A stretch of DNA of 48,434 bases, taken from Candidatus Zhuqueibacterota bacterium (GTDB taxonomy: Bacteria; Zhuqueibacterota; Zhuqueibacteria; Oceanimicrobiales; Oceanimicrobiaceae). Of this stretch, positions 3 to 3,234 are shown piece after piece (within the stretch, counting starts at the first letter, position 1; each line of letters opens with the position of its first letter). The DNA lies in assembly GCA_029262005.1 (NCBI GenBank), contig JAJDAG010000143.1, forward strand, positions 1 to 48,434. The letters run 5' to 3'. The translations under genes and the position numbers were made by a program. The notes beneath the pieces are model-generated. The model was not told the DNA's origin. It worked only from the letters and a program-made list of their open reading frames with translations, and ran no database searches.

Positions 3-2258
3 GGAGCGGGTGGGTCGAATACGCCGCCTGTGGCTGTTGATGACGCCGATGTCACAGCGGTGGGTGTTGCCGCAGTGATTGATATTCTCGCCAATGATTC
101 TGACCCGGATGGCAGCCTTGATGCCACAAGCGTTGTTGTCGACACATTGCCTGCGAACGGCTCTGTTTCGATAAATTCCAATTCCGGCGTGGCGACTTAC
201 ACGCCGAACAACGGCTTTAATGGCACCGATACTTTTACTTATACAGTAAAAGATGATCAGGCAGCTATTTCGAATCCGGCAACCGTAACCATCACGGTGA
301 GCGCCGGAAATGTTGCGCCTGTGGCGGTTGATGACCTGGCCGGTACGGCTGAAAACACGGCCGCAGTGATTGATATTCTCGCCAATGATTCTGACCCGGA
401 TGGCAGTCTTGATGCGACAAGCGTTGTTGTCGGCTCGCCGCCTGCGAACGGCGCGGTTTCGATAAATTCCAATTCCGGGGTGGCGACTTACACGCCGAAC
501 AACGGCTTCAGCGGCACAGATAGTTTTACTTACACAGTAAAAGACGACGCCGGCGCCACTTCAAATGCGGCAACGGTGACAGTAACAATTAATGCCAGTG
601 GCGGTGGCCAGACTTTGACGTTTAATTCGATACAGGACGGACAGATTAAGTTGACTGAACCGGCGAAGAAATACGGCAGCAAAAGCACGGCAAAGCTTGA
701 AGCCGGCAAGTTTGAATCCTATTTTAAATTTAGTGTAAGCGGCGTTAGCGGCACGGTTCAAAGCGCAACCTTGCGACTCAAAGTCACGGACCAACCCTCA
801 GATGGCGCTGATCAAGGCGGTGCGGTTTATTCGGTTTCGAATAATTTCTCAGGCACAAACACCCCGTGGAGCGATGCGTTGCTTAGCGGAAATAACGCCC
901 CTTCAATCAGTGGTTCTCCACTCAGCAGTGTCGGAGCTGTTGTCTCAAATCAAATTGTTGAATTCGACGTAAGTCAAGCGGTATCGGGTAATGGCATGTT
1001 CAGTTTTGGCCTCAAAACTCCTTCAGGAAATCAGGTGAAATATTACACTCGTGAAGGTACTACGCCGCCCGAATTGGTGATTACCACTGGTTCTTCCGGC
1101 GGCAGTGGCAATTTGTCTCCAGTGGCGGTAGATGATGCAGGCACAACGAATAAGAATGTAAACCTGGTGCTGGATGTACTGGCAAACGATTCTGATGCGG
1201 ATGGCTCTCTCGATCCGACTAGCATTGTATTGGTGGGGCAGCCGGCAAATGGCAGCGTTGTAATCAATCCTTTTTCAGGCATCGTAACTTACACACCGGC
1301 ACAGGATTTCTCTGGCGCAGATTCATTTGTTTATACCGTTGATGATGATGAAGGCGCTACTTCCAATTCAGCCACTGTTGCGATAACTGTGATTGGCGAT
1401 GGCGGCGGAAACACAACCATCACTTTCAATCCCACGGATGATGGTCAGATTAAGGTGACTGAGGCCGGCAGCAACTATGGCGCAAAAAGCACCGCCAAAG
1501 TCGAGGCGAACAAGTTTCTCACGTATATGAAATTCAACCTAACCGGAATCTCAGGGACTGTGCAAAACGCGCGGCTTCGACTGAAGGTTGCGGATGGCGC
1601 CTCCGACGGTAGCAATGATGGCGGGTCTGTTTATCTGGTAGGGAACAATTTTGCAGGAACGAGCACGCCTTGGTTAGAGGCTGTTCTGACTGCAGGAAAT
1701 GCCCCGGCAATAAGCGGTTCATCGTTGAGCAGCGCAGGCTCTGTTTCAACAAATGAGATTGTGGATTTAGACGTCACCTCTGCTGTGTCCGGCAACGGTG
1801 TTGTTAGTTTTGCCTTGTCCAGCAGCAGTACGAATCAGGCCAAGTACTACAGCCGTGAAGGGCTGACGCCTCCCGAGTTGATCGTTGACGTGAATTTTCC
1901 TTCATTGGCCGAACGGGAAAAGTCAAAAGAGATTATCGCGAAAGCAGAGTTTGATATGTCGGAATTGGCACAGTTGCCGACGGAGCTGTCATTAAGTCCA
2001 AACTATCCTAATCCGTTTAACGCTGGAACACAAATAGAATATGCTCTGCCTGAGGCAGCCAGAGTGCAGCTAAAGATATACAATGTTCTCGGGCAGGAAG
2101 TGCGCGTGCTCGTGGATCAGGTACAGGAGCCGGGATTCAAAAAGGCTTTCTGGAATGGCAGGGATAGCAACGGCAATCCAGTTTCTTCAGGAACTTACTT
2201 CAGCTACTTTGTTGTGGGGAGCAAGAGGCTGACCCATAAACTGATTTTGCAGAAGTAG
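3..2258 (+). CDS. Secreted multidomain surface protein with T9SS sorting domain (5' end outside window)
   Basis: The frame is open from base 3 with no start codon, so the gene begins upstream; 752 residues are visible. Counting from base 3, it holds two near-identical tandem-95 (cadherin/Ig-like) repeats (about 8-105 and 106-200, each with the NDSDPDGSLDAT motif), a DNRLRE-type beta-sandwich (about 205-365), a third tandem-95 repeat (about 372-466), a second DNRLRE-type domain (about 470-635), a short linker and a C-terminal T9SS type A/FlgD-like sorting domain beginning NYPNPFN and ending HKLILQK. In the FCB group such tails direct export by the type IX system and are cleaved at the cell surface. 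It probably acts in adhesion or binding outside the cell; its target is unknown. The domain order R-R-D-R-D suggests duplication of repeat+DNRLRE pairs. A stable inverted repeat lies about 65 bp after the stop. Confidence 0.88.
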   Translation, partial: GAGGSNTPPVAVDDADVTAVGVAAVIDILANDSDPDGSLDATSVVVDTLPANGSVSINSNSGVATYTPNNGFNGTDTFTYTVKDDQAAISNPATVTITVSAGNVAPVAVDDLAGTAENTAAVIDILANDSDPDGSLDATSVVVGSPPANGAVSINSNSGVATYTPNNGFSGTDSFTYTVKDDAGATSNAATVTVTINASGGGQTLTFNSIQDGQIKLTEPAKKYGSKSTAKLEAGKFESYFKFSVSGVSGTVQSATLRLKVTDQPSDGADQGGAVYSVSNNFSGTNTPWSDALLSGNNAPSISGSPLSSVGAVVSNQIVEFDVSQAVSGNGMFSFGLKTPSGNQVKYYTREGTTPPELVITTGSSGGSGNLSPVAVDDAGTTNKNVNLVLDVLANDSDADGSLDPTSIVLVGQPANGSVVINPFSGIVTYTPAQDFSGADSFVYTVDDDEGATSNSATVAITVIGDGGGNTTITFNPTDDGQIKVTEAGSNYGAKSTAKVEANKFLTYMKFNLTGISGTVQNARLRLKVADGASDGSNDGGSVYLVGNNFAGTSTPWLEAVLTAGNAPAISGSSLSSAGSVSTNEIVDLDVTSAVSGNGVVSFALSSSSTNQAKYYSREGLTPPELIVDVNFPSLAEREKSKEIIAKAEFDMSELAQLPTELSLSPNYPNPFNAGTQIEYALPEAARVQLKIYNVLGQEVRVLVDQVQEPGFKKAFWNGRDSNGNPVSSGTYFSYFVVGSKRLTHKLILQK
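43..625 (+). repeat. Tandem near-identical 291-bp coding repeats
   Basis: Two consecutive tandem-95 units are nearly identical at the DNA level. For example, the stretch beginning cgcagtgattgatattctc occurs at 71 and again at 362, an offset of exactly 291 bp (97 codons). The third repeat (about 1117-1400) is clearly diverged in DNA, so the first pair is a recent duplication or is kept similar by recombination. Confidence 0.85.
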
Positions 2259-2417: not shown

Positions 2418-2840
2418 CTATTGAACGGTGTAACCCGCGTCCTGCCAGGCTTTCAAACCACCGAGTAGCGCATAAAGTCTTGTATAACCATTCTCGAATA
2501 AAATTAGCGCCGAACTGGCGCTGCTGAATTCCGCCGTTCAGGTGCAGTAAAACACAATATCCTGGTTTTGCGGGAACTCATTGAGCCGGGCAGATGTGTC
2601 GCTATAGGGAATATTCAAAGCTTCAGGAATGTGCCCAGCGTCAAAAGCATCTTTTGAACGAACATCGACAACCATGATCGTCTGGCCGCCATCGAGTCGC
2701 GCTTTCAGAGTTTCAACGGTCATGCGGGGCACTTCAGAAATTGTTTTTGGGATGTCCGCAGATACTGGATCGTCCCCTGTGGTGCAGGCCATGCAAATGT
2801 GCACTACAATTATAGCGCCCAGATAAAATCTATTTTGCAT
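2418..2840 (-). CDS. Rhodanese-like lipoprotein with in-frame TGA, probable selenoprotein
   Basis: ATG at 2840 is preceded by GGAGAG with 5-nt spacing (a GTG at 2852 is possible). The N-terminus is a lipoprotein-like signal (hydrophobic run, then CMAC, Cys19). The body is a single rhodanese domain: MVVDVRSKDAFDAGHIPEALNIP-type substrate-fold motifs and the active-site strand DIVFYCT. A TGA at 2540-2538 follows. The same frame then continues for 39 residues with a normal rhodanese C-terminus (TAEFSSASSALILFENGY..., then LLGGLKAW) to a TAG at 2420-2418. Many rhodaneses carry CxC here (YCxCPxE), so TGA sits where the second Cys is expected and would give Cys99-Thr-Sec101. A hairpin that fits the bacterial SECIS rules follows at once. 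Read through, the protein has 140 residues; stopping at TGA would remove the last third of the fold. It is the last gene of a three-gene minus-strand redox/metal cluster. The alternative is a nonsense mutation in a pseudogene. Confidence 0.78.
2506..2522 (-). promoter_or_regulatory. Bacterial SECIS-like hairpin after in-frame TGA
   Basis: On the minus strand, 15 nt after the TGA (2540-2538), AGCGCC pairs perfectly with GGCGCT around the five-base loop AGTTC. The loop G is 23 nt after the TGA and is the second loop base. Bacterial SECIS elements are known to place a small apical loop, with a G in its first two bases, about 16-37 nt past the UGA, where SelB binds. The fit is read from sequence; SelB binding is inferred. 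Confidence 0.65.
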
Positions 2841-2916
2841 CCATCTCTCCACCTGTTTAATTTCTCTGTTTTATCCGTTGCGGTATGCATTTGTAAAGAG
2901 ATCTGTAATTAACTCC

Positions 2917-3234
2917 CTACTCAACAATAATTTTTCCGATTTCACGATGATTCTTGCAATAATATGGAAACGTGCCTACATTTTCAAATGTGTGTTCACG
3001 GCTCTCATTCATCTCTAAAAAAGTAAAGTCAAACTCGCTTGTGGGGTTTTCAGGTGTGCCACTCTTCGCGATGTGGAAGTCACCGCACAGGCGTGCCGAC
3101 AGCAACTTTTTTTCTGCGGGCAAAAAATTGTTGCTGGTAATGGAGATGTCCACAATTGAAGGAGCGGAGATATTCAAGGGGTTGTCTTTGTTGCTGCAAC
3201 ACCAGCAAGTTATCACCAGGGAGCAAAGCAGCAT
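2917..3234 (-). CDS. Cupredoxin-like small protein, frame locally disturbed
   Basis: The 105-residue ORF ends in a plastocyanin-like copper-site motif (TFENVGTFPYYCKNHREIGK, with Cys and His ligands) and has GDFHIAKSGTPENP, which fits the first copper His region. The N-terminus MLLCSLVITCWCC is signal-like. Two things are off. Between 3106 and 3083 the used frame reads LLSARLC, while the +1 frame after a seven-base A run (3107-3113) reads VAVGTPVR, the sequence expected of this family, before hitting a TGA. Also, the best ribosome site (GGAGGG) fits an ATG about 23 nt upstream that is out of frame. One or more indels have therefore probably damaged the gene, or the assembly. It would be an exported copper/electron-transfer protein if intact. 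It is followed by the rhodanese gene. Confidence 0.55.
   Translation of the reverse strand: MLLCSLVITCWCCSNKDNPLNISAPSIVDISITSNNFLPAEKKLLSARLCGDFHIAKSGTPENPTSEFDFTFLEMNESREHTFENVGTFPYYCKNHREIGKIIVE

Follow-up and report, generated by a model that had tools for sequence, protein, structure and literature searches.

CxU rhodanese selenoproteins have been catalogued as the family NF041203, the rhodanese-like selenoprotein form 3 of a 2026 review (PMC13188914), and as form 2 of COG0607 (PMC9312934). Since such proteins are already covered by NF041203 and form 3, the rhodanese gene described here does not represent a new type; an earlier note on this DNA had called it a probable new selenoprotein. 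The gene is located on the minus strand of the window, that is, the whole stretch of 48,434 nucleotides that was analysed. Judged by its sequence, its product is a new divergent member of the CxU rhodanese selenoproteins and not an NF041203 equivalog, because NF041203 is the nearest model and the protein nevertheless lies under the cut-off of that model.

A rhodanese reading frame continues beyond an in-frame TGA

Based on the reading frames and on comparison with homologs, the following features were deduced.

2418..2840, minus strand: predicted selenoprotein gene for a rhodanese, probably a lipoprotein, of 140 amino acid residues, with Sec101 from TGA and TAG as the stop codon
2538..2540, minus strand: TGA codon 101, very probably Sec (Cys99-Thr100-Sec101); TGA kept in the orthologue L023, in L043 and in 29 of 30 Chloroflexota-type loci selected by score, with Cys in the YCxCPxE homologues
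2843..2851, minus strand: probable ribosome-binding site, the GGTGGAG region that precedes the ATG at 2840, assigned by inspection
2784..2840, minus strand: N-terminal signal sequence to Cys19 (HICMAC), a lipobox near-miss
2506..2522, minus strand: putative bSECIS hairpin, stem AGCGCC/GGCGCT and loop AGTTC, with the loop G at +23 from the UGA
2917..3234, minus strand: small lipoprotein-like ORF rich in Cys, with a C-terminus (YYCKNH) of plastocyanin type and weak plastocyanin matches

With the TGA translated as Sec, the minus-strand frame from 2840 to 2418 reads MQNRFYLGAIIVVHICMACTTGDD...DIVFYCT-U-TAEFSSASSALILFENGYTRLYALLGGLKAWQDAGYTVQ, followed by the TAG at 2420-2418. The sole in-frame break of the rhodanese gene was the TGA at 2540-2538, located two codons past the catalytic Cys99, and 39 residues lie between this codon and the TAG. 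The full readthrough product was matched by the Pfam Rhodanese profile (PF00581) over profile positions 1-101 of 102 (E 3.7e-18), with a score of 66.3 bits against a gathering cut-off of 22.2 and with the catalytic residue Cys99 present. The translation and the profile, which covers both sides of the codon, bear out the earlier description of a single TGA two codons after the active-site Cys in a frame open to the TAG. In the ORF list, the frame without readthrough stops at FYCT after 100 residues. Gene calling with table 11 thus yields only the first 100 of the 140 residues, and the protein falls short of the cut-off of the nearest curated selenoprotein model. It had also been suggested that the family often carries CxC at this place; this is the case for the CxCPxE subgroup but not for ordinary rhodaneses, whose active-site loops were found to be shorter than that of the window protein when loop lengths were compared.

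Two neighboring ORFs were observed. The ORF at 2917-3234 (minus strand), just upstream of the selenoprotein gene, is possibly co-transcribed with it. On the plus strand, window positions 30-2258 encode repeated Ig-like segments and a C-terminal sorting-like domain, LSPNYPNPFN...GTYFSYFVVG, as read from the ORF list.

The hairpin downstream of the TGA

A hairpin starts 15 nt past the TGA and consists, on the minus strand, of AGCGCC (2522-2517), AGTTC (2516-2512) and GGCGCT (2511-2506), with a 6-bp stem and a folding energy of -9.9 kcal/mol. The perfect stem, the loop, the spacing and the position of the loop G were found exactly as first reported. According to the published bSECIS rules, the loop measures 3-9 nt and the stem 4-16 bp, a G is found in the first two loop positions, the spacing is 16-37 nt and the MFE is <= -7.5 (PMC13188914). 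When these rules were applied, the hairpin at 2506..2522 satisfied all of the constraints.

The chance level was estimated in two ways. Among all TGAs of the window, 2.4% passed the identical hairpin test and 0.9% had an equally strong hairpin; when the coding stretch was resampled synonymously, 2.1% passed and 0.2% were equally strong. As 2.4% of the window TGAs and 0.2% of the synonymous versions match by chance, the hairpin taken alone is suggestive and no proof of Sec decoding. The hairpin region was then compared in an alignment of 29 sequences, in which stem pairing was observed in 90% of cells, with 22-51% in slid-register controls. Double-sided changes, which derive from few sequences (L090 and L096), were found at four of the six stem pairs, and none of 500 shuffles was equally high. 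By inspection, one more compensated stem pair was seen in L107, which lies outside this alignment. The hairpin overlaps a conserved coding motif, SARxA.

Selenocysteine machinery of the source genome

The earlier note had pointed to the need for SelA, SelB, SelC and SelD, and all four were found in the source genome (5.77 Mb, 98.7% complete). The genes selA (569 bits), selB (367 bits) and selD (411 bits) all scored above their cut-offs and contained no internal stops, and the tRNA-Sec was detected at 70 bits with the anticodon TCA (UCA), in agreement with ARAGORN. In the phylum, selB was above the cut-off in 57 of 82 genomes, so Sec decoding is common there.

Such machinery gives a capacity only, and the sequence shows translation downstream of the codon but not the residue inserted. 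The UGA might accordingly be read through as an amino acid other than Sec, by Trp or Cys suppression or under a reassigned code. Reassignment of TGA to sense was rejected because several long ORFs of the window terminate in TGA; in addition, the hairpin conforms to the bSECIS rules, the genome encodes SelB and tRNA-Sec, and the homologues described below carry Cys, not Trp, at the site. Insertion of another residue is therefore regarded as very improbable.

The TGA is conserved in an orthologue and in wider relatives

An orthologue, L023, was found in G003, a genome of another genus of the family. It is 57% identical to the window protein, with TGA at the identical codon, and it retains a stem identical to that of the window hairpin. 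The pN/pS between the two genes was 0.27 before the UGA and 0.29 after it, and past the hairpin it was 0.22. Synonymous sites are saturated, yet the ratio stays low on both sides, which means that the codons after the UGA are translated and under selection. Residues shared by the two proteins were encoded by the same codon in 6 of 7 cases in the hairpin region and in 24 of 69 elsewhere (Fisher p 0.013), a retention as would be expected under constraint on the RNA itself. Genome G003 carries selA and selB alongside the TGA rhodanese (L023, L066, L068). A tRNA-Sec was not found in G003 by an Rfam search with 150 of 994 candidates scored, by a DNA search using selC of the source genome, or by ARAGORN on ∼71 kb near selB, selA and the orthologue.

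A single-protein scan of genome contigs yielded four loci, among which L043, from an Anaerolineaceae MAG, was the informative one: it contains YCT-TGA-PAE and a hairpin, and tRNA-Sec and selA are present in its genome. When 400 genomes of the phylum of L043 (inferred to be Chloroflexota) were searched with NF041203, strong relatives were found in 37 genomes. In 29 of the 30 loci fetched from this type, TGA occupies the exact Sec101 site (L095 has a different sequence there), a proportion that is not a population frequency because the loci were picked by their score against the selenoprotein model. In the phylum of the source genome, the TGA form was found at the threshold used in 2 of 82 genomes only, both within one family, and CxC forms were not found among the phylum relatives.

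Three plasmid-borne homologues (L111-L113), obtained through a targeted plasmid search, have Cys (TGC/TGT) at the Sec site, in the motifs YCACPNE, YCVCPNE and YCVCPSE; the YCACPNE and YCVCPNE forms occur in Pseudomonadota. Exchange of Sec and Cys at a redox-type position is a classic selenoprotein signature. No other stop codon was seen at the site in homologues, TGA or Cys being kept. In a tree of 28 sequences, the window protein and L023 were paired with support of 99/96, and this pair joined the short lipoprotein or membrane-anchored forms of Chloroflexota type with support of 92/85. Horizontal acquisition of the window gene seems plausible.

These relatives also bear on an alternative in which the TGA is an ordinary stop that leaves a truncated 100-residue fragment or a nonsense pseudogene, followed by a chance hairpin. 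The ORF does terminate at the TGA unless it is read through, and a comparable hairpin follows about 2% of random TGAs. Against this, L023 keeps both the TGA and the downstream frame under unchanged purifying selection at saturated synonymous sites, dozens of homologues share the TGA and have hairpins that covary, and the Sec machinery of the genome is complete. A chance stop or pseudogene is strongly disfavored by L023 and the wider relatives, and termination at this codon is regarded as very improbable. Given the machinery, the conserved UGA and hairpin, and the exchange of Sec and Cys in homologues, Sec is very probably inserted at UGA101, with the full-length rhodanese being made. The presence of the machinery and the retention of TGA or Cys at the site support the original proposal of an exported, Sec-decoded Cys-Thr-Sec rhodanese.

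Other forms of the protein were observed among the loci. In L107 (G352:C47), L109 (G211:C55:7600-8900) and L110 (G203:C3:2900-4300), the catalytic Cys is also TGA, in the arrangement Y/V-TGA-Thr-TGA-P. These three appear from their sequences to be Sec-Thr-Sec (UxU) rhodaneses, each with a single SECIS-like hairpin; the rhodanese forms in PMC13188914 do not include UxU. In the Chloroflexota-type loci L081:262-1860 (plus strand) and L082:30-1793 (minus strand), a CTU rhodanese is located C-terminal to a Na+/H+ exchanger (PF00999). Similarly long open frames were seen in L083-L086, L089, L091, L092, L096, L100 and L103-L105, the exchanger domain being confirmed by Pfam in L081 and L082 only. Exchangers and antiporters go unmentioned in the same review (PMC13188914).

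Likely export and lipid anchoring

The window motif HICMAC fails a strict PROSITE-like lipobox pattern owing to the Cys at -3. The lipobox of the orthologue L023 (VVLSC) passes the strict pattern, clear lipoboxes (LLAALAC, LLATLAC and similar) were found in several relatives, and L043 and L090 have an N-terminal anchor. Because L023 and the relatives show lipoboxes or N-terminal anchors, the window protein is likely exported with lipidation, and such export is likely common in the clade. The exported lipoprotein of the earlier note is thus retained as likely, with an imperfect lipobox in the window, but its description as unusual does not hold, since lipobox signal peptides or N-terminal membrane anchors also occur in the nearest Chloroflexota-type clade.

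Active site and proposed mechanism

An AlphaFold model of the readthrough product, with the TGA residue entered as Cys, gave a pLDDT of 90 (92-98 in the rhodanese domain), and Foldseek assigned it to the rhodanese fold with matches to PDB rhodaneses. In 28 aligned sequences, D59, R61, C99, the Sec position, E104, S107, G118 and G128 were invariant. Compared with the canonical CxxGxRS, the active-site loop has two additional residues and lacks the Arg, which suggests a Cys-Sec redox or persulfide-resolving site.

The selenoprotein might also work as a classical sulfurtransferase (to cyanide or an acceptor), Sec101 merely tuning the loop; the rhodanese fold, the catalytic Cys99 and the DxR and GG..W motifs are all conserved. 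This is considered unlikely, however, as the loop is unlike the CxxGxRS loop of sulfurtransferases, and a Sec two residues from a Cys is the arrangement typical of redox pairs.

Very probably, SelA, SelB, SelC and SelD decode UGA codon 101 as Sec, directed by the hairpin 15 nt past the UGA, and the product is an exported rhodanese of one domain, probably with a lipid anchor. For its chemistry, a Cys99/Sec101 redox-pair mechanism is somewhat favored. Within Cys99-Thr100-Sec101, the presumed redox pair of the active-site loop, Cys99 would take up sulfane sulfur (as a persulfide) or bond a substrate thiol, Sec101 would serve as a rapid resolving residue by way of a Se-S bond, and an extracytoplasmic thioredoxin-like partner would re-reduce this bond. 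In this scheme the protein would be a periplasmic oxidoreductase, of the persulfide or thiol-disulfide type, and not a classical thiosulfate:cyanide sulfurtransferase. Literature searches yielded no paper that addresses what CxU rhodaneses do.

Comparison with known rhodanese families

The comparison shows a wide clade of CTU rhodanese selenoproteins, which takes in lipoproteins, membrane-anchored proteins, exchanger fusions and double-Sec forms. Through this clade, what Sec does in the redox chemistry of sulfur outside the cytoplasm becomes directly testable, and the covarying SECIS could be used for its annotation. A possible, though less probable, reading is that the window gene belongs to a large extracytoplasmic clade of this kind, so far without a model of its own and spanning the inferred Chloroflexota and the source phylum, in which CxU changed to UxU in some lineages and the domain was also fused to Na+/H+ exchangers. 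If so, a selenium-based persulfide redox pathway outside the cytoplasm, so far undescribed, would be indicated.

NF041203 (rhodanese_LYCAU, "rhodanese-related (seleno)protein") likewise has a single rhodanese domain and a CxU motif with Sec two residues after the catalytic Cys. It was the best NCBIfam match of the window protein and was also matched by all 28 aligned members. The window protein differs in its score (85.1 bits against a curated cut-off of 115), in its motif (YCT-U, not LYCA-U) and in its N-terminal lipoprotein or anchor region, which lies outside the model match; no genome exceeded the NF041203 cut-off among the 82 of the phylum or among the 400 searched of the phylum of G082. 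CxC rhodanese domains, such as those of DedA/VTT fusions on plasmids of Xanthomonas and Paraburkholderia and of a copy on a Cupriavidus plasmid, share the loop YCxCPxE, with Cys in place of the Sec; two of these three plasmid homologues are annotated as DedA/VTT-domain proteins, and the third record bears no annotation there. TsoB (NF045694), a rhodanese/DsbD-fusion selenoprotein, has the rhodanese domain in common with the window protein but is a fusion model of 572 positions with UxxxxU, against which the window protein scored 32 bits (cut-off 805). The GlpE/PspE thiosulfate sulfurtransferases share the rhodanese fold with the window protein and have the ordinary, shorter active-site loop without a second Cys or Sec.
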